Shown: in pieces, positions 3,001 through 44,401 of the stretch
How positions within the stretch are numbered: the first letter of the stretch is position 1
Layout: every line of letters begins with the position of its first letter
From: a virus
Length of the DNA: 44,707 nt
Reading direction: 5' to 3' (one strand)
Virus record (IMG/VR): IMGVR_UViG_3300005663_000085
Span: 1-44,707 of that record
The notes under the pieces: generated by a model
Databases searched by the model: none
What the model was told of the DNA's origin: nothing
Seen by the model: only the letters and a program-made list of their open reading frames with translations
Program-made: the position numbers and the translations under genes

Positions 3001-6000
3001 GAAGGAGGGTGTGATATCCCGGATCCAACAGATCAACGAATGGCTGGGCGATGATTTTGAGGGAGTGATAGCCTTCGACGAATCGCATAATATGGGCAAT
3101 GCCGTAGAAGTGCGGGGAGAACGCGGCCGGAAGCTTCCCGCGGCCAAGGCACTGGCAGGGGTGGAGCTGCAAAAAACCCATCCTAAAGCCCGGATTATAT
3201 ATGTGAGTGCTACGGGAGCGACGGAGGTGTTGAACCTGGCATACGCGGAACGCCTTGGGCTATGGGGCGAAGGGACGCCTTTCCCCAACAAAGCCACCTT
3301 TGTGGAAAAAGTGTCCGCCGGCGGGATTGCTTCGATGGAGCTGGTAGCCCGGGACATGAAAGCCATGGGCACATACAACGCCCGATCTCTGAGCTACGAC
3401 GGTGTGGAATACGAAAGGATGGAGCATCGGCTGACGCCGGCCCAGGTCCGGCAATATGACAAAATGGCCGATGCCTGGCAAACGGTCCTGCAGAACTTTG
3501 AGGAAGCCTTAAATTTAACCGGCGGAAGCGAGAGCGGCGGTGCTAAGGCCGCGGCAGCATCGGCGTTTTGGGGTGCCCATCAGCGCTTCTTCAATCAGAT
3601 AATAACCACGATGTCGCTGCCGTCTACGATCGAAAGGATCCACAAGGATTTAGACGCGGGCAATTCGGTGGTTGTACAGCTTGTCAATACCCTGGAAGCG
3701 GCCCAGGAAAGAGCCTTGACGAAACTGGCCGAGGAAGACAGTCTTGAAGATCTCGATCTGAGTCCGTTCGATATGTTGATGCAGTTAGTAGAGCATAGCT
3801 TCCCCGTCGCGCAATTCGAGGAGTATGTAGATGAGGACGGCAACCTGCGATCGCGGGTTGTCGAAGATTCCAAGGGGAATCCGATCCAAAACGCGGAAGC
3901 GGTGGCGATGCGCGAGGAGCTCCTGGATGAGCTGGGCAGCTTGCGACGGGAGGTTGCTGACAATCCACTCGATCAGATCATAGAGGAGTTTGGCACGGGG
4001 CAAGTCGCCGAGATCACCGGTCGTAAACGCAGGGTGATCCGGAAGGAAACCGACAAAGGCATAGAAAGGACGATAGAAAAGCGCAGCCGGGCAAAGGCCA
4101 TGGTGGATGCTGACGCTTTCATGGACGGAAAGAAAAGAATCCTGGTGTTTTCCGAAGCGGGCGGAACCGGGAGGAGCTATCATGCGGACTTAGAGGCGAA
4201 GAACCAGGAAAAGAGAATCCATTACCTGTTACAGGCGGGTTGGAGAGCCGATAAAGCCGTTCAAGGGCTCGGCCGTACCCACCGTTCGAACCAAAAGCAA
4301 CCACCTAAATACATCCTGGTGACCACGGATCTGAAGGGACAGAAGAGATTCCTATCATCGATCGCACGGCGACTTGACCAGCTCGGCGCACTGACGAAAG
4401 GTTCACGAGAGACGGGAAGTCAAGGCATATTCCAAGCGCGGGATAATCTTGAGAGTGAATACGCTACGGATGCCCTGGGATTGTTTTATGAGGACCTGGT
4501 GGACGGAGATATAGACACAATCAGCGTGGCCGAGTTTGAAGGACAAACAGGACTAAGTCTTACAGATACATTCGGCAACCTGAAGAAGGACTTGCCTCCG
4601 ATCAGGCAATTTCTAAACCGATTGTTGAGTATGAATGTAGATACGATGAACGCAGTGTTTGACGAGTTTTCGACCCGGATGGACTCGGTGATTGAAGCTC
4701 ATGTCCAGGCAGGTACTTTAGATCAGGGATTGGAGACGCTGAAGGCCGATAGTGTGGTCAAGGTAGATGAGCAAACCGTGCATGTCGAGGAAAGATCCGG
4801 AGCGGAAACAAGCTACGTGCAACTCGATGTAACCAACAAAGCGCCGATTCTTTCATACGAGTCAGCGATCGCATACGCTAAAGACGGTTTTTACCGAAAC
4901 ATCAGCAGCGGAAAAATATGGGCCAGCACTGTCAGGGCAGTAACGAATCGCACGACAGGGGATATTGCGGATACGCATGTGCTCAAATCGATTACCTACG
5001 GTGAGCAGCGGATCCCCGTGGAACAATTTACAGAGGACAAATGGGAGAAGCTATCAGAAGCCCAGGCCGAGCCGGTATGGAGTAAAGCTGTTACGGAGAC
5101 GCCGAAGACGATCGTGCGCCGGGAACATCTGATAACCGGAGCTCTTCTTCCCATATGGGATCGGTTGACCGGGCATCCGCGGATTATGCGAGTACAGACA
5201 GATGCCGGGGAGAGAATGATAGGCCGGATCATCCCGACGAATGTGTTGAGTCAGACATTGAAGAACCTCGGCGCAACAGCCGGACAGGTAGAGATGGAGC
5301 CGGCCGAAGCGCATACGAGGGTGGTCGATCAGAACTACACACTGGAGCTGGCCAACGACTGGCGGATTCGGAGGCGTCGTGTGTCCGGAGATAACCGCAT
5401 AGAACTCGACGGCCCGGGATTCAGCGACTTCGAGATCTTGAAACGGTATGGCGTCTTCTCCGAGAGGATACAATACCAGACAAGGTATTTTATACCTGCA
5501 GGGAAAGAAGGTGTCGATACCCTGGGCCGGATCGTGAAGAACAATCCGATCGTAACAGCCAATCCACCGGTAAGTGCTGCCATGGGAGCGCGTGAAGGGG
5601 AAGGTATCCTGGATGCGCTATCGAGAGAATCCGGATACATTGATTTACGGGTGATATTGGGGGACAAGAATATCGAGCGGATCCAGGCCAGGCTGGATGA
5701 CTTCCGAGGATCCCGGATGATGCATTACTACAATTACCTGCGCGGCCGGCAGGATGCCGACATCAGCATCGTTCTGCAAAAACGCCATCTTCCGCAGTTG
5801 GGTCATTGGTTTCGCAACATGGAAAGCATCCTGTCCCAAACCACCCAGGGGCGGCGTGTATACGAAGCGGGCCGAACCTTCAAGGAAGATACGATCCGGC
5901 AATTCAAGCAATGGGAGAACGTGTACGAGCTGGCGGTCCGAAACCTGGATGCCCAAGAGAAACGAGCCGTGTTGAGACTTTTGGATACCACCCAGGAAAT

Positions 6001-19300: not shown

Positions 19301-19825
19301 CCCGCGCAGAATCGAATTAAGCAATATCAGTTGGAGCAACTCTTGCTTGATGCCCATCGTAGCGGTCTTACACAGGACGCTATCGCGGCACATCTTACCG
19401 AAGCATTGCATGAACGGGATATTGACAAATCTATCAGCCAGGCCTCTGTGCAGCGGTACCTGAAGGAAATCCGCATGGAAGTCGAGGATGAAGTTTCCTC
19501 TGTGGTGCATGACTATATCCGAAACTCGGTGCCCACCGATCTGGAAGGGGTCGAAACCGACCAAGCGTTTCTGGCCGATGTTCGAGACAATATCATCCGT
19601 GACCCGGAAACGGGAGAAGTTAAGAAAGGTGGCTTTGACATCCGAGCCCGGGTACACGCGGCGGTCAGTCACGCCCGGATCACCCACGATAAGATAGACA
19701 GGTTCAGCAAATTCAAGAAAAGCGAGGAGGCCGATGGCGGTCCCGATATACCAGAATCCTCTGTACCGACCGGATCCAATCTACGAACAATTACTGGCAA
19801 GTTTGGAGTCGGAGCGGGAAAGTAA
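19298..19825 (+). CDS. Probable terminase small subunit
   Basis: 175 residues directly upstream of and overlapping the large subunit by 92 bases. Residues about 15-58 form a helix-turn-helix region (SGLTQDAIAAHLTEAL, then SISQASVQRYLKEIR), as expected of a DNA-recognising small terminase. The middle is helical and acidic and would serve oligomerisation. The assignment rests on context and the HTH; the family was not recognised by motif alone. The protein would bind the packaging site and hand the DNA to the motor. Confidence 0.7.
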   Translation: MPAQNRIKQYQLEQLLLDAHRSGLTQDAIAAHLTEALHERDIDKSISQASVQRYLKEIRMEVEDEVSSVVHDYIRNSVPTDLEGVETDQAFLADVRDNIIRDPETGEVKKGGFDIRARVHAAVSHARITHDKIDRFSKFKKSEEADGGPDIPESSVPTGSNLRTITGKFGVGAGK

Positions 19826-21299
19826 GCAGAAGGAAGTTCTCAGAGAATACTGCGTCTACGACCTGTATTTCCTGGCGAAGTATATCCTGGGGCACTGGTG
19901 GCTCTGTTGGGATCCCCACAAGGAATTTGCCGAGGAGATAGAAAAAGAGATCAACATGGAGCTTTTTCTATTGCACCGCGGATCCTGCAAGACGATCATC
20001 TTCAACACCTCCGATAGTATCCGACAATACTTGAAAGAACCAGACCAGCCGATTGCCATATTCTGTGACCTGTCAAAACGGGCCAAGTGGAAATTAAGGC
20101 CGATCCGGTATCAGTTCGAGCGCAACGCCACGCTCAAGTGGCTTTGGCGCGAAATACTCTGGGACGAGCCGGAGAAAGAATCGGACACCTGGACCGAGTC
20201 GGAGCTGTTTCTTCCAGGGCGGCCCGAGGGGCAGGAACCGTCGATCGGCGTTTACGGGCTCGATGCCATGCCTACCAGTCTCCACTTCCCCAAGATCAAA
20301 GGCGACGACCTGGTTACCGATAAAACCGTGACGACCGCGGCACAGATAGGCAAAAGTCTCGACAACTACGGGTCGGTGCGATCCTCGATCCTCATGCCCA
20401 CCGGCACCATCCAGATCTGTGGTACGATCTATGACGATGGCGATCTGCATCGCACGATGGAGGATTCAGCGGAGTACACGGTCTATAAGCGGCCGGCTGA
20501 ATGGACGGAGATAGACGACGACGGCGTAAAACACCATAAGACATTCTGGCCGGTTCAGTTCGGGCCGGAGAAGCTGGCGGCGATCAAGCGGGATCCGGCG
20601 GTGAGCATTTATATCTATTCGTGCCAGTATCTTCAGGATCCGGTGCCGGAAGACGAGAACGCCTACTTCCAGCTCAAATGGTTCGGCCGCTATAACTACG
20701 AGCCCTGGCCGAAGGTACGCCCTGGTCTCAATATGTTTGCTGCAGCCGACCTGGCCATCTCGGAAAAGAAGACCGCTTGTGAGACAGCGATCGTTGTCGG
20801 CGGCATAGATTGGAATTACGAGCTGTTCATAGTTCATGTTGCCAAGGGGCATTGGGACGCCGGCGCGATCGTCGATAACATTCTCGATATACAGGCACGG
20901 TACCATCCCGGGATATTCACGATCGAGGCGGAAAACATCCAGAAGACGATTATGCCCTTCCTTCGGCTGAAGATGCGCGAGACGGGGATATTTCCCAATG
21001 TAGACCCGAGGTTGCCCATGGGTGATAAAATAGCCAAGGGCCGATCGTTTCAAGGTAGAGCAAAGGAGGGGGCAGTCCACCTGCCGGCAAAAGGACGGGG
21101 AGCGGCCCCTCCGGACTGGCTTCCCTTTACCGAGCTGCAGATCCGCAGGTTTCCAAAGGGCAAGGACAAAGACGTGGCCGATTCCATTTCCCTTCTCTGC
21201 CATCAGCTCGACGACCAATGGCGGCCGGCGACCAAGGAAGAGCTCGAAGCCCGGGCGCAAGAGGAATATGTGCCGCTGGAAGCGGCGATTGGAATGTGA
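19734..21299 (+). CDS. Terminase large subunit
   Basis: 521 residues with a GAGGAGG ribosome-binding site inside the small-subunit gene. The ATPase has a deviant Walker A, HRGSCKT (81-87), followed by adenine-motif-like PIAIFCDLS. The C-terminal RNase-H-like nuclease shows AADLA (D339), IEAEN (E398/E400) and DVADS (D480, D483), the three acidic metal ligands of headful and cos terminases. It pumps DNA into the prohead and cuts it. Length and motif order are normal. Confidence 0.95.
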   Translation: MAVPIYQNPLYRPDPIYEQLLASLESERESKQKEVLREYCVYDLYFLAKYILGHWWLCWDPHKEFAEEIEKEINMELFLLHRGSCKTIIFNTSDSIRQYLKEPDQPIAIFCDLSKRAKWKLRPIRYQFERNATLKWLWREILWDEPEKESDTWTESELFLPGRPEGQEPSIGVYGLDAMPTSLHFPKIKGDDLVTDKTVTTAAQIGKSLDNYGSVRSSILMPTGTIQICGTIYDDGDLHRTMEDSAEYTVYKRPAEWTEIDDDGVKHHKTFWPVQFGPEKLAAIKRDPAVSIYIYSCQYLQDPVPEDENAYFQLKWFGRYNYEPWPKVRPGLNMFAAADLAISEKKTACETAIVVGGIDWNYELFIVHVAKGHWDAGAIVDNILDIQARYHPGIFTIEAENIQKTIMPFLRLKMRETGIFPNVDPRLPMGDKIAKGRSFQGRAKEGAVHLPAKGRGAAPPDWLPFTELQIRRFPKGKDKDVADSISLLCHQLDDQWRPATKEELEARAQEEYVPLEAAIGM

Positions 21300-27682: not shown

Positions 27683-29548
27683 ATGGCGATGTTTAAAGGA
27701 GACAAGCTGGCCAAATACATCGTGGACGATCTTTTCAAGTGGTTTCGGGATGAGCGATCGGAGCAACTCGAACCACAGATGAGACGGAACTACGATGCGT
27801 TTCGCGGCAAGTACAATTCGGACGCCCTGAAGAAGTGGCGAGCCACGGAGGGCAACGATTGGCGGTCCCGGGTGTTCGTGCGGCTGACGAAACAGAAGGT
27901 GTTTACCTATTTCAACCAGGTCATGGCCATCCTCCTGCAGGACGGAAAAATGCCCTGGGACCTGGAACCATCCCCCATCCCCCAGGATCGCGCGGGCGCG
28001 GTATTGAATCCGGACGAAGCCAAGCGCCGATCGGAAGGGATGAAGCGGCAAATCGATGATGATTTCACGGACGCCCGGGCCTCGCGAACGATGCTCAGCA
28101 GCGGACTGGAAGGGGCGATATACGGGTACTCCTGGATCCGGTCACCGGTGATGAGGCCGCACGCATTCATGGGAGTAAAATTCGGGGTCCCCGGGATGCA
28201 GCCGTTATATTTCAACGAGGGAACGGTGCAGGAGTTCGGCCGGCACAGCATGGCTAAGCAGACCCGATTGCGGCCGGTGCTCGAAGGACCCGGGGTGTGG
28301 AACGTGTTCTGGGACCTGGAAACACCCGATCACCAGAAAGGCCACGGCGTGATCCTGCGGGACATGATGAGCAAGGGGCGATTTCTGGATCTGCAGGACC
28401 TGCCGGGATACGACGCCAAGACGATAAACGAGCTCGTATCCGGCCTGAAGGCAACCGACGACGACACCGGCGAGGAGGACGATTCGGAAGGCCCGATCCG
28501 GGAACGCCTCAACAAGCGCCGGCGAGTGATCCCCGTGTATACGATGTATGGTCGCGTGCCGCTGAAAGAGCTGCAAGACCAGGAGAAACGGAGCGGCCAA
28601 CCCATCCGGGGCCTTAACCAGCGGCACGAGCGCGAGGTGGAGATCTACACGGTATGTGCCGGCGTAAATGACGTCAAGGTCATCCGGCAGCCGGTCTTGA
28701 ATCCGCTGACGTACCGGCCGATGCACCTGGCCAAGTGGCAGGATCTGCCGCACGAGCCGGCCGGAGTGGGCACGCCGGAGGATATGGAAGACAGCCAGAT
28801 GGTTATGAACGGGCTGACCCGGGCAATGCTGGACAACAAGGCGATTTCAAGCAATCTGCTTTTATACTGGAATCCCCGCTTCATGGCCCCGGGCCAGAAC
28901 AAAAGCTTGTATCCGGGCAAGGCGTTCGAGGTGGAAGAAGGGGTCGACGACGTGCGGCAAGCGATGCAATTCTACTCGCCGCCGGACAACACCCGCGGCA
29001 CGCCGGATCTTATCAATCTGTTTCGGGATTTTGCCGACAATGAGACCGGCGTGTCCCGGACCCAGGACGGGCAGTTGGGGCCGGCCAACCGGACGGCGTT
29101 CGAGATGGCCAAGGTGGCCGAGGCGGGCAATAAGATGGTGGCCGGCACATTGAGAAATGTCGATGACGGCCATGTAGAACCGGTTGTGTTGGGGCAGTAC
29201 CATTACCACATGATGACCGGGCGCGACGAGAGCATCAAGGGGGATTTCAAACCGGTGGCCACCGGCTACCAGACGTTTGTCAACCGGAACAAAACCACCC
29301 AGGATCTATTAGGCCAACTGCAGTTAAGCCTGGCGACCGAAGCCACAATGCGATTTACGAAGGTGTTGCACTTTCTCCGGGATATTGCTAAGACCAACGG
29401 CCTAGACCCGGACCGCTATTATCCGTCCGAAGAAGAGGAAGAGGTCGACAAGCAAATCGAAATGATGGTCAAGATGCTTCCCGGGGTATCCGGACAGGGA
29501 TCCCCGGAAGGAGCTGCCCCGGTACCGGTGGATGGGAACGATTTATGA
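27683..29548 (+). CDS. Portal protein (podovirus type)
   Basis: 621 residues, AAGGA upstream of the ATG. The N-terminus has the portal-like NYDAFRGKYN, then VRLTKQKVFTYFNQVMAIL, and the typical MNGLTRAMLDNKAISSN long central helix region with NETGVSRTQDGQLGPANRTAFEMAK near the end of the stem. The C-terminus is acidic with disordered Pro/Gly. It forms the twelve-fold ring at the capsid vertex through which the terminase packages DNA. Size and order fit portals of phages with gp56-type capsids. Confidence 0.85.
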   Translation: MAMFKGDKLAKYIVDDLFKWFRDERSEQLEPQMRRNYDAFRGKYNSDALKKWRATEGNDWRSRVFVRLTKQKVFTYFNQVMAILLQDGKMPWDLEPSPIPQDRAGAVLNPDEAKRRSEGMKRQIDDDFTDARASRTMLSSGLEGAIYGYSWIRSPVMRPHAFMGVKFGVPGMQPLYFNEGTVQEFGRHSMAKQTRLRPVLEGPGVWNVFWDLETPDHQKGHGVILRDMMSKGRFLDLQDLPGYDAKTINELVSGLKATDDDTGEEDDSEGPIRERLNKRRRVIPVYTMYGRVPLKELQDQEKRSGQPIRGLNQRHEREVEIYTVCAGVNDVKVIRQPVLNPLTYRPMHLAKWQDLPHEPAGVGTPEDMEDSQMVMNGLTRAMLDNKAISSNLLLYWNPRFMAPGQNKSLYPGKAFEVEEGVDDVRQAMQFYSPPDNTRGTPDLINLFRDFADNETGVSRTQDGQLGPANRTAFEMAKVAEAGNKMVAGTLRNVDDGHVEPVVLGQYHYHMMTGRDESIKGDFKPVATGYQTFVNRNKTTQDLLGQLQLSLATEATMRFTKVLHFLRDIAKTNGLDPDRYYPSEEEEEVDKQIEMMVKMLPGVSGQGSPEGAAPVPVDGNDL

Positions 29549-30607: not shown

Positions 30608-31258
30608 ATGACAGCAAGATTGAAGAAGGCGGGATGTCTCGTTCTGGCCTTGCTCCTGATCTCGACGACAGCGTGGGGGTTGAGCAGCCGGGCCAACGAG
30701 GTGATTACCGGCGAGTGGCGATTTATGAAGCCGGTGCGATTCAACAATGTTAAGTACACCTGGCCGTCTGCAGACGGATCCAGCACCGAGGTGCTTCAAA
30801 CCGACGGGAGCGGGACCCTGAGTTGGGTGGCCAATGCCGGCGGGAATACGGATTGGGAGAACATCGGGGATCCGAGCGGGGCAAACGCGATCGACATGAC
30901 CACGTATGCCACGACGTTTGATTTCGGCGGAACCGTCGATATGTTCACGCTGGAATTTACCGCGGCCTTTGCCGATGTGTCGGGGATGGTCCTGGAACAA
31001 AAGACCGGCGATCCGACAGACGGCACGTTGCTTGAATTGAAGCTGGCGGACAACGATCCGGATTTCCTATCAATGAAGACGTCGGGAACGGAAGTTCTCA
31101 ATGTCACGGACGATGGGGTGTTGACCCTATCGCCGGCCAATAGCCCAACCACAATACGGTTGTGCTTTCCCCGGGCGCGGCGGCAACGACGGCGATTCTG
31201 GCTACAGATACCGACTACACCAACGCCCTTAGCGCCGGCGACAATGACATCCTGTTGA
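30608..31258 (+). CDS. Fibre-like protein, N-terminal part (interrupted by -1 frameshift)
   Basis: GGAGGAAT precedes the ATG. It has a Sec-type signal (LKKAGCLVLALLLISTTAWG) and a fibre-like body (TEVLQTDGSGTLSWV, GTEVLNVTDDGVLTLSPANSPTT). Up to about residue 181 the protein reads normally; the last 35 residues are out-of-frame, Arg-rich and lack sense. The frame one base back continues as TVVLSPGAAATTAIL, which fits perfectly, so the real gene runs from here to 33165. The shift lies at about 31150-31155, near ACAATACGG. Confidence 0.6.
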   Translation: MTARLKKAGCLVLALLLISTTAWGLSSRANEVITGEWRFMKPVRFNNVKYTWPSADGSSTEVLQTDGSGTLSWVANAGGNTDWENIGDPSGANAIDMTTYATTFDFGGTVDMFTLEFTAAFADVSGMVLEQKTGDPTDGTLLELKLADNDPDFLSMKTSGTEVLNVTDDGVLTLSPANSPTTIRLCFPRARRQRRRFWLQIPTTPTPLAPATMTSC

Positions 31259-33165
31259 CTACGGGTGACATCAACGCGACCAATTACGACCTGACCGGGG
31301 CAACGGGAGATCTGACATTGGTCGGCGATGTGTCGGCGGTGGACGGAACCTTTAGCGGAAACGTGGCTGTGACCGGTACGTTTCAGCAGGATGCCATATC
31401 GGCCGCCACGGGCAATACCACCCTAACGATCGACGGGACCGGCAGCGGCGGTGTGTCGATCGGTACAGTGGCCGGCACCGGCGCGATCACGTTAGGCGGC
31501 GGCGGATTCTCGACGGACGTAACCCTGCCGGCGACGGTGGACCTAACACTGGTCGGCGGGGCTCTGTCTATTACGGACACTGCCAATGCAGATCTCGTAT
31601 TCCTGCTCAACAACACAATGACCACGTCCGACATCATCCAAATCACCGCAGCCGCCGCCAGAACGTCGAACAATATCTTCAAGATAGCAGACGGCGCGAC
31701 CACGGCCACCACAATCAATATTGTGGCCAACGCGCAGACGTCCGGCGACATGCTCTATTACAACAACACCGGAGCGGGCTTGACGGGATCGGCCATTCAC
31801 CTGGACATCGACGACGGGGCCGGATTCACCGGGTACTATTTACGGGCATATGACGGCGCTGCAGACGATTTCAGTATCAAGCGCTATGGCGCAACGGTCG
31901 TCGGCGGCCTGGCCAACACGGATATGTTCACAATTACAACCGGCCATATCCAGGTTGACGACGGCATGATCGAGGTCGATACCGATGAGGACCAGTCGAG
32001 CAATGTCACGAGAAACTTTGCCGGTGCCGGAACCGGCGCGGCGTTTGCCGTTGTCGATTCCAATGCGTCCAGCACAAACTCGGCCCTGGCAGTGACCTCG
32101 GCCGGGACGGCCGGAACCGGCGTTACGATCACGGCCTCGGGAACCGGGGCCGGAACCGGCCTGGCCATCGTTCACAGCGGCGATCTGGCGGCGATTAACA
32201 TTTCCGCGGGCGCGGCCCGGACCGGCGACGTGATTGCCATCCCCATGGCGAACATGCTGGCCGAGATAGCGATCAATATCGACGGGGCCTGGACGGGAAC
32301 GGCGGCCGAGGGAATGATCGATCTGTATTCATCGGGCAACATAGCCAACACGGCTTCGATGGTCCGGATTGATACCGACACCGGGACACCGGGCGGGAGC
32401 GGATTTGCGATCAATGTCGACGACGATTCGCTTGACGGCGGAACCTTCTACGCGGTCGTGATAAACAGCAACGCCAACGAGGGCCTGAATGTGGCCACCG
32501 GGCTGTCGCTGTTCGGGGAGATCGTGACATTCACCGGCGGCATCGATGTCGACGGCGACATAGACATCGACTATACGACCAACGCCCAGGAGGTCTCGCT
32601 TGACTCCACGGCCACGGACTACGCGGCGGGCGGCGGGATCGTTACCATCCACGGCAATCACGCCGGCAACGCGAACGATGCGCCGCTGTTGAGGCTTGTG
32701 TATCAGGCCAACGCGGATGCCCAGGATACGTTTTTGTTGATGGAGGATAATTCGACAGGAGCGGCCGCCAACGGCGACGATCAGTTTAAGGTGGGGACCA
32801 ACGGCGATACGACCATGGCCGGGATTCTGAGAGTTGGCAGCCAGATCGTCAACGATCCGCTGACCGAGACGGTGACCACGGAAGCGGACATCACGGATCC
32901 TCTCACCTCGACCATAGTTTTGATCGAGGGCGATAACGATGCCGACAACGACACCATCGACCTGCAGAACGGGACAACGGCAGGCCAGATGCTAATTCTG
33001 GCAGCCCACGCCAACGTGGATGCCGACGATACGATCACCATTAACTATGGCGATACGACCTGCACGAACTGTGCGGCGACAACCCTTAACAAGATCGGAG
33101 AAAGCGTGACGCTGTTCTGGGCCGGAGCGACCTGGATCCAGATTGCGCTTAACGACACTCTGTAA
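31162..33165 (+). CDS. Fibre-like protein, C-terminal part (continuation of the gene at 30608)
   Basis: 667 residues; there is no ribosome-binding site before the GTG at 31162. Sequence continuity with the preceding part is clear (VVLSPGAAATTAILATDTDY directly following SPANSPTTNT in the shifted frame). The body is a long Thr/Ala/Gly/Asp-rich repetitive fibre shaft with strands such as GDLTLVGDVSAVDGTFSGNVAV; the C-terminus has a compact domain with a CTNCAATTLNKIGESVTLFW end. Together with the 5' part this makes a fibre of about 850 residues. One missing base in the assembly or in the phage would explain the break; no slippery heptamer is visible. Confidence 0.6.
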   Translation: MLSPGAAATTAILATDTDYTNALSAGDNDILLTTGDINATNYDLTGATGDLTLVGDVSAVDGTFSGNVAVTGTFQQDAISAATGNTTLTIDGTGSGGVSIGTVAGTGAITLGGGGFSTDVTLPATVDLTLVGGALSITDTANADLVFLLNNTMTTSDIIQITAAAARTSNNIFKIADGATTATTINIVANAQTSGDMLYYNNTGAGLTGSAIHLDIDDGAGFTGYYLRAYDGAADDFSIKRYGATVVGGLANTDMFTITTGHIQVDDGMIEVDTDEDQSSNVTRNFAGAGTGAAFAVVDSNASSTNSALAVTSAGTAGTGVTITASGTGAGTGLAIVHSGDLAAINISAGAARTGDVIAIPMANMLAEIAINIDGAWTGTAAEGMIDLYSSGNIANTASMVRIDTDTGTPGGSGFAINVDDDSLDGGTFYAVVINSNANEGLNVATGLSLFGEIVTFTGGIDVDGDIDIDYTTNAQEVSLDSTATDYAAGGGIVTIHGNHAGNANDAPLLRLVYQANADAQDTFLLMEDNSTGAAANGDDQFKVGTNGDTTMAGILRVGSQIVNDPLTETVTTEADITDPLTSTIVLIEGDNDADNDTIDLQNGTTAGQMLILAAHANVDADDTITINYGDTTCTNCAATTLNKIGESVTLFWAGATWIQIALNDTL

Positions 33166-34269: not shown

Positions 34270-35277
34270 ATGAGCGAGTACACGAAGTATGGGGACATTT
34301 CGCCCCGCACTAATTTTGCAGCCTGGGGCAAGCTGCTCAAGAGAACCGTGGCGGCCATCTTCACGGAGCGCACGGCACAAACCAAGCCGATGCCCAAGGG
34401 CAAGGGCCGGACGCAGATCTTCCGGCGCTACTTAACCCTGTCTGTGGCTACCACGCCGCTGGCAGAGGGCGTGACGCCCCCAGGGACCAAACCCGATTAC
34501 ACGGATGTGGAGTGTACGTTGGAACAATACGGCGACTGGATCGGGATCACCGACGTGATCCAGGATACCCATGAGGATCCGGTGATTAGTGAGTTCCGCG
34601 GCCTGCAGTCCAGGCAGATGAAGGATACGCGGGAAACGCTTAACATCGATATCCTTAAGGGCGGGACCAACGTCTTTTACACCAACGACTCATCGCGAGC
34701 GGCCGTCAACACGCCTGTCGACCGAGGTGATCTGCGCAGAATCGTGCGGGATATGACAGGATCCAATGCGGAGTTTTACATGGAAATCCTCTCCGGTTCG
34801 GCCAAGTACGACACGAGCCCGATCGGGGCTTCCTTCATTGGAATGACACACACGGATGCCCGCCACGATCTGCAGGAGATTACCGGTTTCACCGAGGTTC
34901 AGAACTATGGGGATCCGTCGGACAGAATGTCCAAGGAAGAGATGGGCCAGGCCGAGAACATACGGTTCCTCCTGGGTACCCTGTGGACACCCTGGGCGGA
35001 TGCGGGCGCGGGCGGCGCGACGATGATAGGTACGACGAATCCGGCGGCCAATGTGGATGTCTATCCGCTGGTGGTCGTTGCACCGGATGCATGGGCAACG
35101 GTTCCGCTTCGCGGTGTGAACTCCGGCAACATTGCGGTTGTGAACCCGCAACCCCGGGGCGGGGATCCGCTGGGGCAGCGGGGCACGTTGGGCTGGAAGT
35201 ACTGGCACGCCGGCATCATCCTGAACGACACGCTGATGGGCAGGCTGGAGGGCGCCTATACCTTGAACCCGAACTAG
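34270..35277 (+). CDS. Major capsid protein, N4-gp56 family
   Basis: 335 residues; AGGAGAGAG precedes the ATG. Family hallmarks: LAEGVTPPGTKPDYTDVECTL, then EQYGDWIGITDVIQDTHEDPV, a long helix (RQMKDTRETLNIDILKGG), and GMTHTDARHDLQEITGF. These match the N4-gp56 (HK97-fold) capsid family. It forms the icosahedral shell around the scaffold encoded upstream. Length is typical. Confidence 0.92.
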   Translation: MSEYTKYGDISPRTNFAAWGKLLKRTVAAIFTERTAQTKPMPKGKGRTQIFRRYLTLSVATTPLAEGVTPPGTKPDYTDVECTLEQYGDWIGITDVIQDTHEDPVISEFRGLQSRQMKDTRETLNIDILKGGTNVFYTNDSSRAAVNTPVDRGDLRRIVRDMTGSNAEFYMEILSGSAKYDTSPIGASFIGMTHTDARHDLQEITGFTEVQNYGDPSDRMSKEEMGQAENIRFLLGTLWTPWADAGAGGATMIGTTNPAANVDVYPLVVVAPDAWATVPLRGVNSGNIAVVNPQPRGGDPLGQRGTLGWKYWHAGIILNDTLMGRLEGAYTLNPN

Positions 35278-35332
35278 CGGATGGGAACCGTTAGTGGAAA
35301 CCGAGCGATAATCATAGAAGGGAGGAAGTATC

Positions 35333-36478: not shown

Positions 36479-37360
36479 ATGCCAAGCCAGTATGCCAGAA
36501 CCATACGGCAGGTGATAAACGACACCTTCCGGATATGCGGCGATTACCAGGGCAACGGCCGGGACGGGCTCCAATGGACCTGGGATGAGGCCCGGATCGC
36601 GCTAAAGGATGCGCTCCTCGATCTGATAGTGACCACCGGGATCCTTAAGGATTGGCGGACCATCCCCCTCGAAGAGGATACGCCTGTTTACGACCTGCCG
36701 AATAATTGCTTGCGGATCCTGCGCGTGGGGATCCACGGCCTGGGCGGCACAGTGGTATTTCCCCGGGACGTGGCGGAGCACGATTACCAGCGAACCGCCA
36801 TGGTGGCCGGCGGGTTTCCGGATTCCTTCTTCCGAGATACCCTGGAGCCCCATCAGATCGGATTCTACCCCACACCGGATCAGGCGGGATCTACCTTTAC
36901 CCGGGACAGCCAGTACGGCCTCCTGCGCCGCGTAGTGGACGAGGACGGCAACGAGCTGACGATCGACGCCAATCTTCCGCTCCGGCGAATCGGCGGCGTG
37001 CCCATGTCCAGGACCGGACGCGGCCGGATCATCCGGGAAGTGGTCAGTGAGTACGGCAACATTCAGATCCTATTTCTCCGGACGCCCTTCTTCCCGGACA
37101 ATCCGGATGAATATATAGACGAAGATATCCCCGACCATATCCACAAGGACCTGAAATACGGCACCTCGATCCGGCTGATGCGCGGATCCCGCAGAAGGCT
37201 GCACGCCCTGAAGATCCGCAAGTTCGAGCCCAAGTGGGTCCGGACCAAGAAGAGCCTGCAGCGAGTGGCCGAACATAAGGGGCCGCTCGACCGGGTGACG
37301 GTACCGGCCGGGGTGACCGGCAATGTCAATTCGGAGCTTTTTTCTTATCCGACAGAATGA
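36479..37360 (+). CDS. Head-tail adaptor protein
   Basis: 293 residues, 8 bases after the previous stop. The N-terminus (TIRQVINDTFRICGDY, WTWDEARIALKDALLDLIVTTGILKDWRTI) and the LEEDTPVYDLPNNCLRILRV motif are typical of podovirus adaptor proteins that sit under the portal. The gene order portal-capsid-adaptor fits. A second adaptor-like gene lies at 37943. Confidence 0.7.
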   Translation: MPSQYARTIRQVINDTFRICGDYQGNGRDGLQWTWDEARIALKDALLDLIVTTGILKDWRTIPLEEDTPVYDLPNNCLRILRVGIHGLGGTVVFPRDVAEHDYQRTAMVAGGFPDSFFRDTLEPHQIGFYPTPDQAGSTFTRDSQYGLLRRVVDEDGNELTIDANLPLRRIGGVPMSRTGRGRIIREVVSEYGNIQILFLRTPFFPDNPDEYIDEDIPDHIHKDLKYGTSIRLMRGSRRRLHALKIRKFEPKWVRTKKSLQRVAEHKGPLDRVTVPAGVTGNVNSELFSYPTE

Positions 37361-37374
37361 AACGGAGGTAGACC

Positions 37375-37581
37375 ATGGAAGCTGATTTTGCGAAACGATT
37401 CACGCACCACACACCGAAAGACGACCAGCCCGAGCGATACAAGAAGATAAGAGACCTGGGCTATCAGTTCGCCCATGCGATCAATGACGGCTGCCCGGAC
37501 AGTAGGGAGAAGTCTCTATCTATCACCAAGCTCGAAGAGACTGTTATGTGGGCCTGCAAGGCCATTGCGCAGAACGAATGA
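37375..37581 (+). CDS. Acb2/Tad1-like anti-CBASS (cyclic nucleotide sponge) protein
   Basis: 68 residues, ACGGAGGTAGACC before the ATG. The sequence FTHHTPKDDQPERYKKIRD, a CPDSREKS turn and the helix ITKLEETVMWACKAIAQNE match the helical-hairpin family called Acb2/Tad1. In studied phages Acb2 forms hexamers that bind cyclic di- and trinucleotides and so block CBASS (and related) abortive defence. The conserved proline-aspartate-arginine-glutamate corner and the final LEExxMWxxxAIxxNE are intact, so the protein is probably active. It is encoded within the structural module, after the first adaptor gene and before a small cassette. Confidence 0.85.
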   Translation: MEADFAKRFTHHTPKDDQPERYKKIRDLGYQFAHAINDGCPDSREKSLSITKLEETVMWACKAIAQNE

Positions 37582-37589
37582 GGTAAGGT

Positions 37590-37952
37590 TGAATGACACT
37601 TGTGAGTGTTGCCATGGAACCGGACCCATGCCTAAATTGCATATTGCCGGATTGCGACGATGGAGACCCCAGATGTCCTATCGGTAACGAGATACGGGAA
37701 GATTGGAAGGAGCGAAGCCGGGAACGGAGAAGGAGCCCTGAACAGAGAGCAAAAGAGTATCAAGCACATAAGGCCAGAAGAAAGACAGACAGAGGGCGAA
37801 TGCTCTGTGCGGCACAAAAAAGGAAGTATCGGCAGAAACATCCAGAGACTGAAAGAGCGATCAACGCAAGATACTACCAAGCAAACAGAGAGAGTATATT
37901 GAGAAAAAAGAGGGAAGACTATCAGAGCAGGATAGGGGCTGAATGACACTTG
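37590..37952 (+). repeat. 13-base direct repeats bounding a 350-bp cassette
   Basis: TGAATGACACTTG occurs at 37590-37602 and again at 37940-37952, exactly 350 bases apart. Each copy supplies the start codon and first codons (M-T-L) of the gene that follows. Removing one copy and the DNA between would rejoin the upstream AGGTAAGG ribosome-binding site to the gene at 37943 without harm. Confidence 0.8.
37593..37946 (+). CDS. Cassette-borne zinc/basic helical protein
   Basis: 117 residues starting in the left repeat and ending with ATGA overlap at the next gene. The N-terminus has CLNCILPDCDDGDPRCP, a four-cysteine zinc motif. The rest is a very basic, arginine/glutamate-rich helix (RERRRSPEQRAKEYQAHKARRK, shortened here), with a closing YYQANRESILRKKREDY like the linker seen before HNH nucleases. 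No HNH motif is present. DNA is purine-rich and unlike its neighbours. It probably binds nucleic acid; the family often accompanies homing elements. Confidence 0.6.
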   Translation: MTLVSVAMEPDPCLNCILPDCDDGDPRCPIGNEIREDWKERSRERRRSPEQRAKEYQAHKARRKTDRGRMLCAAQKRKYRQKHPETERAINARYYQANRESILRKKREDYQSRIGAE

Positions 37953-38644
37953 CCGACTTCAAAAAGACACGAACCGAGCTGGTCGACCAGACGTTATTGC
38001 TGATGGACGATCCCCTGGGGGAACGATGGGCAGCATCGAGGGTGCCCGAGGCGCTGAACGATGCGGTGCTGGATTTCTGCATGAAGACGCAGGTAATCAA
38101 GGCGGAGATCAATATCGTCCTCAAGACCAATATCCACGAGTACGACATCAAGACTCAGGTGGAAGAGGACGGCACGCTGAGACTGTACGGTTTCCCGATC
38201 CGGGTGGGCTTCAACGGGAATGGCGATCCCGGGATGTGGCCGACGACTCTTCTCACTATCGACCTCATGGGCTCATCGCAAACGGCGAACGCCTCTCCCA
38301 TGCAGTGGCACCTGGACAGCGTGAGCCCGGGCAAGATCGTTCTGTTCGGGCCGCCCGCCGCGGACGGTACGGCCAGCCCGAGCGAATCGGGCAACATGCA
38401 GGTTACCTATATCGGGCTGCCCAATTATATGGACGACGACGGCGACTACCCGGACGCCCACATTCCCGTGGCCTCGTACGAGACGATACCCTACGGGGCC
38501 GCGGCCATGCTCCTGGAAGAAGGCGACGGCGACGACCTGGCCAAGTCCATCGAATATGAGGCACTGTTCAGGCGTGGCACATTGGCCGCGGTGGCGGAGG
38601 ACTATCGATCCAATACGGTGTATGACGATGCGAGACCGGCATAG
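37943..38644 (+). CDS. Second head-tail adaptor/connector protein
   Basis: 233 residues. The start lies in the right-hand direct repeat. TRTELVDQTLLLMDD, RVPEALNDAVLDFCMKTQ and KTNIHEYDIKTQ resemble the adaptor family of the gene at 36479 (same N-terminal helix-pair then beta-domain order). PYGAAAMLLEEGDGDDLAKSIEYEALF near the end is a typical C-terminal helix region. It probably forms another ring between portal and nozzle. Confidence 0.65.
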   Translation: MTLADFKKTRTELVDQTLLLMDDPLGERWAASRVPEALNDAVLDFCMKTQVIKAEINIVLKTNIHEYDIKTQVEEDGTLRLYGFPIRVGFNGNGDPGMWPTTLLTIDLMGSSQTANASPMQWHLDSVSPGKIVLFGPPAADGTASPSESGNMQVTYIGLPNYMDDDGDYPDAHIPVASYETIPYGAAAMLLEEGDGDDLAKSIEYEALFRRGTLAAVAEDYRSNTVYDDARPA

Positions 38645-39098
38645 ATTCGGAACACTGAAGAACCCGACCGGACTGCCGGTACGGGTAGACCGGGGAGGCA
38701 ACGGCCACTTCGGTTCCCGGAGGTCCCTGTGGAGAGACGGCGAATTATACCGGTACAACCACAAGGGCCAGGACAACGAATGCGTGCCCGGGCAGGATGT
38801 CCGAGCGCCCATATACGGCAAAGTCCAAAGGATCGCCTATCCCCACGATCCGAGCAAGAGCCCTTATTCCGGCCTGATTATCGAGAACCCGGTTTATACC
38901 ATCAAAATGCTTTATCTGGCACCTCTCAAGGATATCGTAGGTAAGTACATCGAGGCCCTGGAGGTCATCGGCCAGGCCCAGGATATATCGCTGAAGTATC
39001 CGGGCAGCGGAGTTACCCCGCACATTCATACGGAAATCGTGAGCATATCGATGGACCCTGATCTGTATATGGAAGGACAAACGCTGAAGCCGACATGA
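38628..39098 (+). CDS. M23-family peptidase (LytM-like), tail lysin or endolysin
   Basis: 156 residues from the ATG at 38628; 38622 also possible and neither has a strong ribosome-binding site. It overlaps the adaptor by 17 bases. The zinc ligands are visible: H45 and D49 in NHKGQD, and H134 in HIHTE (with H132). The segment VRAPIYGKVQRIAYP is the family's core strand pair. M23 enzymes cut peptide cross-bridges of peptidoglycan. Its place among tail genes suggests a virion-bound lysin used on entry, but no other endolysin is seen, so it may also serve lysis. No signal peptide. Confidence 0.8.
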   Translation: MRDRHRFGTLKNPTGLPVRVDRGGNGHFGSRRSLWRDGELYRYNHKGQDNECVPGQDVRAPIYGKVQRIAYPHDPSKSPYSGLIIENPVYTIKMLYLAPLKDIVGKYIEALEVIGQAQDISLKYPGSGVTPHIHTEIVSISMDPDLYMEGQTLKPT

Positions 39099-40654
39099 GC
39101 ATACCGATAACCATACGAAAGCCCCAGGGGATCGCGCCCAGGTTCGACCCGAATCTGAAGGTGGGCTTTGCCCGGACCGCAGAAAACGCGGATCTGACAT
39201 CGGGCAAGCTGCGGGCCATGGCCGATGCTTCGCTCGAAGTGGCGGACACCAATCTTTACAATTCCATGTTCTACTTTGCCGGGGCCTGGGAGAGAAACAC
39301 CGACCGGTTCTATCTGGAATGGAAGATCGGGACCTACGATATTCTGATATATCTGGTCGACGGCGTGCCCACCAAGAAGATAGGATCCTCGACGGCTATT
39401 TTGGGCCAGCCCCGGCTGGCAGCGCCCACGGCAGCCGATAACGGAGGAGGAGCATTAACCGATACGTTCAGCTATATCATCACGACAACGCGAAGCGTGG
39501 GCGGATTTACAGAGGAGTCCGGACCCTCGACGGCATCGGCAGAGATCACGGTGGCGGCAAAGAAGATCCTGGTGACGGCCCCGACCATCAGCGACAGCGA
39601 CGTTACCTTCTGGAACATATACCGGATCAGCAATACCAGCGGCGAGTACCAGTTTGCGGCCACGGTGGCCGTGGCCACAACGACGTATGACGACAACAAC
39701 GCGGACACGGACCTCGGGGCGAGTCCCACTACCTGGTACACCTCCGACCAGGGCAACACCATCACGTGGGATAAGCCCCAGGTCACTTTCGACGGGATGA
39801 TTGCCGCGGAGCCCTATACCGGGATGCTGTTTTTCTGGAAGGGATCGACCCTGTACTGGACGGAGCCGGGACATCCCGATGCGATGCCGGCGTTCTACAA
39901 CATGAATTTCCCGAGCGACATACAACGGGTGTTTCCCTTTGCCGGCACACTGGCGGTATTGACCAAGACAGGCCCGCACCGGGTCGATGGCACCCACCCG
40001 GAATTGCTGCAGCCGTCCAAGGTTCTAGGGGAAGAACCGTGCATATCCACGGCGGCCGCCAAGACAACCCGGGGGATAGCGTATCTGTCAGATACGGGGA
40101 TTGTGCTTTTCAACCTGGTGGACACGGCGATCATGACCGACGAGAGATTTACAGAACAGTGGTTTGCCGATAACGTAACGGCGGCCGGCGCCTTCATGGA
40201 AGAAAACGACGGCAAGATTTACCTGTTTCATTCGGGCGGCGTGCTCGTGATGGATGCCCGAACCCGGGCGGTGATCTTTACCACCATGGATATCGTTGCC
40301 TATTCGAGCCACGTGCGTCCGGACACCGGAGAGCTGTACTATATGGACAGCGCCGGGGTGAAGAAACTGGCCGGCGGCACGGGGACGTTGACCTGGACCT
40401 GGCAGAGCGGAGATCTGGTGGGCCGGCACCCGGAAGATAAGGACTTCGAGGGAATCGAGCTGATCGGCAGCGGTGTGATTACGGCGACACTGTATATCGA
40501 CGGAACGCAGGTGGCGACAAAGGCCATGACCTTTAGCCAATACCGGGGCCGCATATTGAAGATCGACAGCGACGTGAACAACGGCCGGGCGATGCAGGTA
40601 AAGCTGACCGGCACCGGCCAGTTCGATGAGATCATCGCCCGATACTCGCCATAG
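39095..40654 (+). CDS. Tail nozzle/hub protein
   Basis: 519 residues, starting in a 4-base overlap with the peptidase. It starts with SIPITIRKPQGIAPRFDPNL, has a fibronectin-III-like insertion (about 110-220: FSYIITTTRSVGGFTEES, FWNIYRISNTSGEYQF) and then a beta-propeller-like body (MLFFWKGSTLYWTEPGHPDA, FPFAGTLAVLTKTGPHRVDG, GIAYLSDTGIVLFN). This matches nozzle (tail tubular B-type) proteins of podoviruses. It would form the distal tail channel. Confidence 0.75.
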   Translation: MSIPITIRKPQGIAPRFDPNLKVGFARTAENADLTSGKLRAMADASLEVADTNLYNSMFYFAGAWERNTDRFYLEWKIGTYDILIYLVDGVPTKKIGSSTAILGQPRLAAPTAADNGGGALTDTFSYIITTTRSVGGFTEESGPSTASAEITVAAKKILVTAPTISDSDVTFWNIYRISNTSGEYQFAATVAVATTTYDDNNADTDLGASPTTWYTSDQGNTITWDKPQVTFDGMIAAEPYTGMLFFWKGSTLYWTEPGHPDAMPAFYNMNFPSDIQRVFPFAGTLAVLTKTGPHRVDGTHPELLQPSKVLGEEPCISTAAAKTTRGIAYLSDTGIVLFNLVDTAIMTDERFTEQWFADNVTAAGAFMEENDGKIYLFHSGGVLVMDARTRAVIFTTMDIVAYSSHVRPDTGELYYMDSAGVKKLAGGTGTLTWTWQSGDLVGRHPEDKDFEGIELIGSGVITATLYIDGTQVATKAMTFSQYRGRILKIDSDVNNGRAMQVKLTGTGQFDEIIARYSP

Positions 40655-40977: not shown

Positions 40978-42037
40978 CATCCTGATAGTTGCAGCGGTAA
41001 CGCTCGGTGCGCTATGGGGCCCGAACCTGACACAAGACAGGCTTGTGTATGGAGACAGCGCCTATGAGATCCAGAGCGTTTCGGATCTGACGGCCTGGAT
41101 TGGGGGCACAGCGGGCGAGATCGCCGTGGCCGACGATGGGGACGGCACGATTACCATTTCCATGCCGGCCCCGGTATATGGAGAGTTGTCACAATCCGGG
41201 GGGTCTTTCGTAACCGCCGACAGCATAACGGTCAATACCGGAACGGTGGCCAGCGGAACGGTCGCGGATACATACACGGTAAACAGCACATATCACCAGG
41301 TGACCGAGATTGCCGGCGGCGGCGGCGGGTTCGATGTAGAATACATCTTTACCGTGGCAGATAATCCTGCATCGCTTTCAGTGGTAGGGCGCTATGAAGG
41401 GACCGTTGCACATAGTACGGTTGTCGAGGCGTGGAATTATACGGGAGGTACCTGGGATACCTTCACCGGTGCTGGTGACGATATGGATCACTCGACAACG
41501 GATGCGGAGTTCACGTTTACATATGCGGCCCTGGCCGGCGCGATCACGGACTATGTATCCGGAACTGCCAGCAAGTTCAGGATCTTCCAGGCGCCCCCCG
41601 GGACCGGAACGGATAACCTATACATAGACGCGGCCACGATTCAAATTCAGCAGTACGCAATTGCCAGCCCCGGTGTATATGGAACAATTACCGGAATGAG
41701 CCTCGGGGAAAATAACGGAATTACCATGAACGCCTCCTCCGGAACATGGACGATCGTAACCTCCGGGCTCTATGATGCCCGATGCGCCATTTCCTTTTCC
41801 GGCACACCGAGCACTCGTTTTCTGGGCCACTTTCACGTAGACGGCGCGATCGAAACAGAATCGGGTTTTTCAAGAAGATTAGGGTCGGGCGGAGATGTAG
41901 GGCCGGCGACGATAATGGGGCTGCTGGCCCTGTCCGCCGCCGAGGTCGTCACCGTGGCGATCGCCGCGGACGTCGGTGGAGTGTATGTGGCGATCGAGCG
42001 GCTCAACTGCAGCCTGACGATGATACGGGGGAGCTGA
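40943..42037 (+). CDS. Fibre-like protein with N-terminal hydrophobic anchor and C1q/TNF-like end
   Basis: 364 residues; AAAGGAGAGAAG precedes the ATG inside the previous gene. The N-terminus WIKAVTLLSILIVAAVTLGALW is a membrane anchor or signal. The middle is a beta-rich shaft. The C-terminal 110 residues (GVYGTITGMSLGENNGITM, GLYDARCAISFSGTPSTRFLGHFHVDG, SAAEVVTVAIAADVGG) have the jelly-roll pattern of C1q/TNF-like fibre tips. It is likely a receptor-binding protein; the N-terminal anchor is unusual for one. Confidence 0.65.
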   Translation: MFGWIKAVTLLSILIVAAVTLGALWGPNLTQDRLVYGDSAYEIQSVSDLTAWIGGTAGEIAVADDGDGTITISMPAPVYGELSQSGGSFVTADSITVNTGTVASGTVADTYTVNSTYHQVTEIAGGGGGFDVEYIFTVADNPASLSVVGRYEGTVAHSTVVEAWNYTGGTWDTFTGAGDDMDHSTTDAEFTFTYAALAGAITDYVSGTASKFRIFQAPPGTGTDNLYIDAATIQIQQYAIASPGVYGTITGMSLGENNGITMNASSGTWTIVTSGLYDARCAISFSGTPSTRFLGHFHVDGAIETESGFSRRLGSGGDVGPATIMGLLALSAAEVVTVAIAADVGGVYVAIERLNCSLTMIRGS

Positions 42038-42498
42038 TGATAATCCGTCCGGCAGTAACGACAGATATCGACCAGCTGGTTGTCATGAGCGAGAAATTTT
42101 ACATCACGGCGCACTTGGACGAGGTCGGCCTGGGGAGACGGAACGAAAGTGTGGCCGACTACATAAAAATGATGCTCCCGCTGGATCTTTTTGCGATATT
42201 CGTGGCCATCGAGGCAGGCTGGATCCGGGGAACGATATCCGGGATCCGGTATCCCTGGTTGATGGACATGAGCCAGGTTCTTCTCATGGAGAACTGGTGG
42301 TGGGTGGATCCGGACTATCGAGGCAGCGGTATGCAAAAGAGGCTGGAAGCCGAGCTGATTGCCTGGGGTAAGGAAGGCGGAGCATCGAGGCTGATAATGG
42401 TGGTGTCAGAAGGCCTAACCAAGAAAGACGCATTGCGGAGGTATTATGGGCGCAAGGGGTTCGAGCCCATGGAAACCCATTACATAAGGGAGATCTGA
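42037..42498 (+). CDS. GNAT-family N-acetyltransferase
   Basis: 153 residues, start overlapping the fibre stop by one base (TGATG). The fold is evident: MIIRPAVTTDIDQLVVMSEKF as strand 1 and helix 1, the FVAIEAGWIRGTI strand pair, NWWWVDPDYRGSGMQKRLEAELIAW with the R-G-S-G acetyl-CoA loop, and YYGRKGFEPMETHY at the end. It acetylates an unknown amine. Phage tail-proximal GNATs of this kind are frequent in podoviruses and may modify virion or host proteins. Confidence 0.85.
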   Translation: MIIRPAVTTDIDQLVVMSEKFYITAHLDEVGLGRRNESVADYIKMMLPLDLFAIFVAIEAGWIRGTISGIRYPWLMDMSQVLLMENWWWVDPDYRGSGMQKRLEAELIAWGKEGGASRLIMVVSEGLTKKDALRRYYGRKGFEPMETHYIREI

Positions 42499-42499
42499 A

Positions 42500-43417
42500 A
42501 TGCCGATAGCCACAGGGACGGCCATAGTGATCGCGGGCGCGGCGGCGCTTGGCGGTTCGCTATACTCATCGAGCAAAGCCAGTAAGGCAGCCGAGCAGCA
42601 AACCGAAGCGATCGCGGGGCGCACTGCCGCCAGCGATAAGATCTCGCTGGAACAATGGGACCGGTTCAAGAGGATATACGGGCCGCTGGAAGAACAACTG
42701 GTCGAGGAGGCCAGCGGCGGGTTTACCTACGGCCTGCCAAAGCCGGACAGGGCCGCCATCGAGCGCGAGGTGTTGGCCGAGAGGGGAGTGTCTGCCACCG
42801 GCAAGGGGGAGAAGCTGGCCGGTTTTGAGAGCCAGGTTGCACGCAGGGGACTGGCCGGAGCTCAGAGGACGGAAATACTAGCAGAGGTCGATAAACGCTT
42901 TGCCGCGGCCATGGAGAAATACGAGGCGTCCCGGACATTTACGGGCAGCCCGGGCTTGACCAGAATGATGGCGGGCATCGATCGGGGGTTTTCCGACATT
43001 GCCGCCAACACCCGCAGAACGCTCGGCGGCCGCTTTCCCCAGGGAGCCGGACTGGAGACGCTTTTTTCCAGGGACGTGGAGCTGGAGAGAACCCGGGCAA
43101 AAGCGGGGGCCGCGGCCGATGCAGAGACACAGAGATTCCAGCGGATGTTCAACGTGGCTCAGCTCGGGCGGGGCCTGCCGTCGGAAGCGATCGCCGGACT
43201 GAATGCCGGCAACGCGACGTCGGCCGCCCTGGCGAACCTGTATAGCAACCAGGCCACGCGGGGATATCAGGCCGCGGGAGATGCCGCGGGAAATATGATG
43301 CAGCTATACCTGATGTCCCAGGGCGGATTTGGTGGCGGTGGCGGTGGCGGCGGAACGGGCTTTCAAGGAACGCCGGCGCAAAACGCTTTCTTGAATCCGG
43401 AACCGGTATTTGCATAG
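42500..43417 (+). CDS. Internal virion / ejection-type protein
   Basis: 305 residues starting one base after the GNAT stop. The N-terminus has a glycine/alanine-rich hydrophobic segment (TAIVIAGAAALGGSLYSSSKASKAAEQQ) typical of ejected membrane-penetrating proteins; the rest is long helical (RRGLAGAQRTEILAEVDKRFAAAMEKY) and ends in poly-glycine. Such proteins travel in the capsid and form a channel for DNA in short-tailed phages. No family was named. Confidence 0.65.
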   Translation: MPIATGTAIVIAGAAALGGSLYSSSKASKAAEQQTEAIAGRTAASDKISLEQWDRFKRIYGPLEEQLVEEASGGFTYGLPKPDRAAIEREVLAERGVSATGKGEKLAGFESQVARRGLAGAQRTEILAEVDKRFAAAMEKYEASRTFTGSPGLTRMMAGIDRGFSDIAANTRRTLGGRFPQGAGLETLFSRDVELERTRAKAGAAADAETQRFQRMFNVAQLGRGLPSEAIAGLNAGNATSAALANLYSNQATRGYQAAGDAAGNMMQLYLMSQGGFGGGGGGGGTGFQGTPAQNAFLNPEPVFA

Positions 43418-43426
43418 GAGGCAACC

Positions 43427-44401
43427 ATGGGCATAGGAATCGGACTGGCACAGATAGCCGAGGGCCTGACCGGCGGTGCGGTCAGAGGCACGGCATTCAA
43501 CCTGCAGCGGGAATCTGCCGCCGGAAAGCAAGCGGCCGACGAGGCGCACCGGGCCGAGCTGCTCGGGATCCAGAAGAGGATCCTCGGCAACCAGGAAGAA
43601 CAGGCACAGATCAGCCGTACGGCAAACGCCATGAAGACCGCGTACGCGATCGCCAAGGATTCACCCAACGCAAAAGAGGTGTTCGCCAGCACGTATAAGC
43701 AGCTCGACCCCACCGGCCAAGTGCCCGAGGTGTCTTTCGAAAAGGATACGATCGAGATAAACTTCGAGGGCTTGAAATTCAAGGGCAAGAAAGGTCCGAT
43801 GATCGAGGCGCTCGGGATCATCGCAGAGAACCCCGAAGCTTCACCGGAAATCATGTCTCAACTGGTACAGCTCGGGCTGCTGTCGATAGAAGCGCCGAAG
43901 GACAAGCCGGGCAGAGTGGTGGTCGTCCCGCCCGGGCACGCGGTGCTCGACGAGAAGGGAGTGGTTTCGTTTCCTGCAGGCCAGAAAGGAGTAAAGGCCG
44001 GCAAGGGGGTAACGGTCAGCGAGCTTTCGACCGGGATCAATGCGATATTCAAGAAATACAAGGTCGACGCCGGCCTGGGGATTACGTTCGGCCCCGATAA
44101 AACAGCGACGATCGACATGGCGACATTCCTCAACGGCAAGGAAACGGCGTTTAATATCATCCAGAAAAAGGCCGATGAGAAAGACGCGGACGCGGTCGAG
44201 GACCTTGCCAAGATACAGGGATATTACGAATTGATGGACCGGCTGTTGCGCCGGGTCACACAGCCCCCCCCCAGCGGTGCCCTGGGACGGATGGCGGGGC
44301 TTGACGTGACCCCGCCTCCGACCGGCTCTCCCACGGGCACCGCTCCCACCGATACAAATCCGGTCTTTGACCCGACAACGGGGCGGTTCTCCGTTAAGTA
44401 G
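43427..44401 (+). CDS. Second internal virion-like protein
   Basis: 324 residues, TAGGAGGCAACC before the ATG. The N-terminus (IGIGLAQIAEGLTGGAVRGTAFN) is a short Gly-rich hydrophobic helix; the middle is helical, then alternates helix and strand. The C-terminus is proline/threonine-rich (PPPTGSPTGTAPTDT). Its place beside the first ejection-type protein and its composition suggest a virion-internal protein. The cellular sequence begins a few bases after its stop. Confidence 0.6.
   Translation: MGIGIGLAQIAEGLTGGAVRGTAFNLQRESAAGKQAADEAHRAELLGIQKRILGNQEEQAQISRTANAMKTAYAIAKDSPNAKEVFASTYKQLDPTGQVPEVSFEKDTIEINFEGLKFKGKKGPMIEALGIIAENPEASPEIMSQLVQLGLLSIEAPKDKPGRVVVVPPGHAVLDEKGVVSFPAGQKGVKAGKGVTVSELSTGINAIFKKYKVDAGLGITFGPDKTATIDMATFLNGKETAFNIIQKKADEKDADAVEDLAKIQGYYELMDRLLRRVTQPPPSGALGRMAGLDVTPPPTGSPTGTAPTDTNPVFDPTTGRFSVK

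Follow-up and report, generated by a model that had tools for sequence, protein, structure and literature searches.

A stand-alone Acb2-type gene carried in a variable slot of a phage virion module

The characterised Acb2 proteins Vs.4 of phage T4 (PDB 7uq2) and the orf24 product of phage PaMx33 are 88–93 amino acids long and form a single stand-alone domain, a short helix followed by a two-helix hairpin; a review likewise describes the Acb2 protomer as a short helix plus two long helices (PMC12043709). In T4 Vs.4, Y8 and F82 stack on cGAMP, bonds to this ligand are made by Y8, H11, K23 and R79, and the hexamer is held by L29, A66, A73 and A77 (PMC10097602). Both proteins carry the motif MWAC(K/R)A(I/V)xQ in the C-terminal helix and basic residues at the K23 and R79 positions. 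Tad1 (7uav, 8kbb) has a C-terminal hairpin with an SRE...EEAxMW motif and, in addition, an N-terminal beta-sheet domain, and is about 123–138 residues long. The short proteins of PHROG 1454 and PF24729, among them those of Paenibacillus phages Lily and Heath and the relative in PDB entry 9ptq, share the motifs F-x-[YH]-H-x-P...Q, PxSREKSLx and LEExxMWxxxAIxxNE. The defence system Panoptes fires once Acb2 removes its decoy nucleotide, and the Panoptes authors describe a mutation in phage T2 that is likely to impair the dinucleotide site of Acb2 (PMC12657218).

The window analysed here, i.e., the whole stretch of 44,707 bases, is a virus contig from IMG/VR to which no host genome is assigned. 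At positions 37375–37581 of the plus strand it holds an intact frame of 68 codons that starts with ATG, and a strong ribosome-binding site (GGAGG, 37364–37368) lies six bases 5' of this start. The encoded protein, P0001 (MEADFAKRFTHHTPKDDQPERYKKIRDLGYQFAHAINDGCPDSREKSLSITKLEETVMWACKAIAQNE), has the sequence PDSREKS at residues 41–47 and ends in the helix TKLEETVMWACKAIAQNE, which follows the pattern LEExxMW..AI.xNE. The initial annotation had given exactly this frame and had singled out both PDSREKS and the LEExxMW helix, which are present as described. P0001 equals the short PHROG 1454/PF24729 proteins in length and carries their three motifs, with H11, C61, K62 and Q66 where most of them have Y, N, A and R. 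Like T4 Vs.4 and the PaMx33 protein, it is a single domain with a short helix and a two-helix hairpin, carries the MWAC(K/R)A(I/V)xQ motif and is basic at the positions aligned with K23 and R79; unlike them, it is some 20 residues shorter, with a shorter inter-helix loop.

The family assignment is carried by profile matches of P0001. The Pfam Acb2/Tad1 hairpin (PF24729), the profile search that the initial annotation had proposed, is matched over its full length (1–58 of 58) with an E-value of 2.1e-20 and 73.1 bits, against a cut-off of 27, and PHROG 1454, whose function is listed as unknown, is matched with an E-value of 7e-23. By tblastn, relatives occur in 319 phage records, mostly of Mycobacterium, Paenibacillus and Gordonia phages and all below 60% identity, and a single motif pair retrieved 431 related stretches from IMG/VR. 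The closest sequence of solved structure is ‘Acb2 homolog 43’ (9ptq; E-value 5e-4 from sequence alone, 1e-5 with a profile); a literature search on the code 9PTQ found no paper. Aligned by hhalign with the T4/PaMx33-type Acb2 proteins, the P0001 profile matches with a probability of 93.9% and an E-value of 1.6e-7 over 34 C-terminal columns, a match that spans the last helix and leaves the N-terminal register outside it. The PADLOC and NCBIfam collections contain no model that matches P0001. We note that Paenibacillus phage records, e.g., MH460826.1 at 35106–35321 (L012, 4001–4216), label the family ‘phosphomannomutase’, apparently a propagated misannotation.

The gene is also under constraint. 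Between P0001 and its nearest relative, the copy at IMG/VR locus L013, pN is 0.21 and pS 0.93 (saturated), indicating strong purifying selection, and in the same pair of phages pN is higher for the adaptors (0.32–0.33) and the internal virion protein (0.26). Because of the PF24729 and PHROG 1454 E-values, the 319 phage records and this purifying selection, chance is excluded as the source of the family match, and by sequence comparison P0001 is a real, somewhat divergent additional member of the known Acb2 counter-defence family. That the gene is a decaying, inactive copy is very improbable: several conserved residues are changed and one relative is apparently broken, whereas the frame is intact, the ribosome-binding site good and the purifying selection strong. 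The broken relative (L041, 6001–6169) has a 31-aa ORF with homology resuming further on, which may reflect loss of function or an assembly error.

An AlphaFold2 model built with 28 family members places helices at residues 2–10, 20–39 and 44–65 (mean pLDDT 87.7), i.e., a short N-terminal helix and a two-helix hairpin, in agreement with the published Acb2 protomer. The most similar predicted viral structures are mostly annotated as Acb2/Tad1 hairpin proteins. Against solved structures in the PDB, a Foldseek search with the model returned no significant match, the small helical hairpin being an uninformative query, and in the VIA-align comparison Tad1 rows scored only weakly (Z 4.8), mixed with unrelated helical hairpins. 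The Pfam model covers the hairpin common to Acb2 and Tad1, and P0001 gives weak sequence matches to Tad1 chains, so a Tad1-type inhibitor of Thoeris that binds gcADPR has to be weighed. Neither the sequence nor the all-helical model, however, contains the N-terminal beta-sheet domain that Tad1 has, and with 68 residues against about 123–138 P0001 corresponds to the Tad1 hairpin without that domain, which makes a Tad1-type function scarcely credible. The initial annotation had spoken of an Acb2/Tad1-like protein; the family stands, and as to its form, the reading of P0001 as a stand-alone Acb2-type protein, not a Tad1-like one, is well supported.

Mapped onto T4 Vs.4 by alignment, the ligand-facing residues Y8, K23, R79 and F82 correspond to H11, R26, K62 and A65 of P0001, the N-terminal part of this mapping resting on a gap-free MAFFT segment whose register hhalign does not confirm. 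Charge is thus kept at the T4 K23 and R79 positions, and the two stacking positions differ: the stacking tyrosine (Tyr8/11 of T4 Vs.4 and PaMx33) is replaced by His11, and Phe82 by Ala65, alanine being found there in PaMx33 Acb2 as well. Three of the hexamer-interface residues of T4 (A66, A73 and A77) correspond to the small residues S49, T56 and A60. In a scan that did not select on the N-terminus, R26 is present in 77 of 77 readable members, and position 11 is tyrosine in 69 of these. Histidine occurs there in two others (L083 and L106), and H11 is therefore ruled out as a feature unique to P0001.

Four changes in P0001 (Y11H, A49S, N61C and A62K) alter residues that 80% or more of the other aligned rows have in common, and the C-terminus reads ACKAIAQNE in place of the usual ANAAIARNE; the L013 protein, its nearest relative, departs at 0 of 26 conserved positions. 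Of 95 distinct sequences, four are basic at position 62, and all four lack R66 (Fisher p 7e-5), a small, post hoc count in which the p-value ignores kinship and the scans were motif-seeded. The T4/PaMx33-type proteins have an invariant arginine (R79) at the position of K62. Together, the absence of R66 wherever K62 occurs and this invariant arginine suggest the retention of one ligand-binding basic residue, displaced by a helical turn from R66 to K62.

The same residues bear on an alternative in which P0001 is a sponge of altered specificity that keeps the Acb2 fold and, with H11, K62 and Q66 changed, binds 3',3'-cGAMP weakly or has lost this binding; its suggested targets are another cyclic nucleotide, or else the avoidance of Panoptes decoys. 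The departures from conserved positions, set against none in the L013 protein, speak for it, as do the restriction of K62 to proteins without R66 and the T2 mutation cited above. On the other side, H11 recurs in two further members, and the K62/Q66 arrangement resembles the validated Acb2 proteins of T4 and PaMx33 rather than a loss. We regard altered specificity as possible, though doubtful.

As the initial annotation had stated, the gene lies between two adaptor genes. Adaptor 1 (36479–37360) and adaptor 2 (37943–38644), both on the plus strand, are SU10-type head–tail adaptors that match PF24175 (SU10_adaptor) above its curated cut-off with E-values of 8.7e-7 and 1.6e-8, respectively, and belong to phrog_399. 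The two adaptors match each other's homologs weakly (19–22% identity) and are probably an old duplication, with the slot between the copies. The placement inside a virion module, likewise proposed at the outset, is borne out by further genes on the same strand, i.e., those of the large terminase (19734–21299), the portal (27683–29548), the major head protein (34270–35277; phrog_1357, E-value 1.7e-49) and the internal virion protein (39095–40654). The interval between the adaptors (37361–37942) contains, besides the acb2-type gene, a second small plus-strand ORF that the initial annotation had missed (37593–37946, 117 aa), which overlaps the start of adaptor 2 by four bases. Its product has an N-terminal cysteine cluster (CxxC...C...C) and a basic C-terminal half, and has no match in Pfam, PHROG or the phage collection. 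Third-position GC is 0.65 for the acb2-type gene and about 0.48 for the 117-aa ORF, below the 0.76–0.78 of the adaptors, which suggests that both ORFs arrived later than their neighbours.

Elsewhere in the window, ORFs 30608–31258 and 31162–33165 (216 and 667 aa) overlap in different frames and resemble one repeat-rich virion gene split near 31.2 kb, by sequencing error or frameshift. The virion module also includes an acetyltransferase-like gene (41782–42498; phrog_1249, E-value 7e-17) with a homolog at the same place in L044. At the contig edge, a gene for 2761 aa (20–8305) has DNA methyltransferase-like matches at residues 440–666, and parts homologous to it lie directly 3' of the virion genes in L044 and L047. 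Searches of IMG/VR with the internal virion protein or an adaptor protein of the window, used singly, found nothing; two-sequence alignment with L013 as query identified relatives through the internal virion protein (61–68% identical). In L047 (8962–11127), as well as in L046, the gene of this protein has an in-frame insertion of ~200 codons relative to the window gene.

The adaptor junction of these relatives differs from phage to phage. It is empty in L043 (2 bases) and in L045 (about 44 bases), is occupied by an unrelated 68-aa ORF in L044, and holds an unrelated Cys-containing ORF in L047 and the near-identical L046 and L048. L013, which is on the same contig as L045, has its acb2 gene (68% identical to P0001) elsewhere in the virion module, between homologs of the window genes 42500–43417 and 43427–44401; in the window, the matching junction is a 9-base gap (43418–43426). 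The junction between adaptors 1 and 2 is a variable cargo slot, newly described here. Because the junctions are empty or differently filled and the L013 copy lies at another junction, the comparison indicates that acb2 is an accessory gene, carried as cargo and moved within the virion module, yet conserved. The location inside the structural module would also be expected if the hairpin fold served a structural role, in the virion or in its assembly. Four related phages that share the module, however, lack the gene at this junction, and homologs occur in replication modules of other phages and, in Paenibacillus phages, outside the structural regions, so that a structural role is hardly plausible.

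For 18 other IMG/VR loci we examined one or two genes neighbouring the homolog, picked by ORF length rather than by full annotation. The homolog lies beside, or one gene away from, a terminase, portal or head-protease gene in eight of the 18 (L019, L024, L025, L026, L027, L028, L029 and L031), and a primase, polymerase or Sak4-like gene is the scanned neighbour in L022, L023, L030, L032 and L037. In L019 (1862–3770), the portal gene adjoining acb2 is apparently split into two ORFs. In contrast to the virion-module slot of P0001, the T4-type vs.4 gene is placed in the vs cluster and PaMx33 orf24 in an operon on the strand opposite the structural genes. By these neighbours, late-module placement is recurrent in unrelated phages; it is not a rule, because replication-module neighbours are also common and the characterised relatives lie outside virion modules.

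In the window, no same-strand terminator-like site and no promoter signal above chance were found between the acb2-type gene and the neighbouring genes. As all of these are on the same strand, P0001 is probably translated late, together with the adaptor and head proteins.

In 84,980 genomes searched with the major head protein, no relative exceeded 44% identity; most of the relatives lay in proteobacterial genomes or metagenome-assembled genomes (MAGs) and one in a Pirellulaceae MAG, none close enough for a host call. No tRNA genes were found in the window. The initial annotation had expected the host to carry a cyclic-nucleotide defence, which is a conjecture.

Taken together with the homology, predicted fold, purifying selection and variable slot, P0001 is most likely a stand-alone Acb2-type sponge, predicted to sequester CBASS-type cyclic signals and carried as slot cargo. 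By likeness to the hexameric characterised Acb2, it would assemble through its helical hairpin and sequester alarm molecules, cyclic di- and/or trinucleotides, made by CBASS or related systems. The CBASS effector would then stay inactive, and the infected cell would live long enough for virion production. A capsid-linked trigger of CBASS is supported in the literature (the Bas13 prohead protease, cited in PMC12409349); the link that the initial annotation drew to a capsid-triggered defence stands on such published work and not on the window, and with such a trigger a sponge made alongside the head proteins would be well timed. Panoptes sensing is one possible reason for the altered ligand residues and for the presence and absence of the gene among relatives. 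A more elaborate reading would make P0001 a late, slot-mobile Acb2 variant in which the R66-to-K62 shift and the Tyr-to-His change confer a new signal specificity, perhaps neutralising CBASS without alerting Panoptes-type decoy guards, and which is delivered when capsid-sensing CBASS fires; we consider this combination distinctly unlikely.

In sum, P0001 would add a divergent phage lineage to a widespread counter-defence family. The swap between residues 62 and 66 offers a concrete handle for mutational testing of signal specificity. Acb2-type genes occupy variable slots of virion modules, including a relocation between two related phages, and this raises the testable question of whether late placement is matched to defences that sense capsid assembly.
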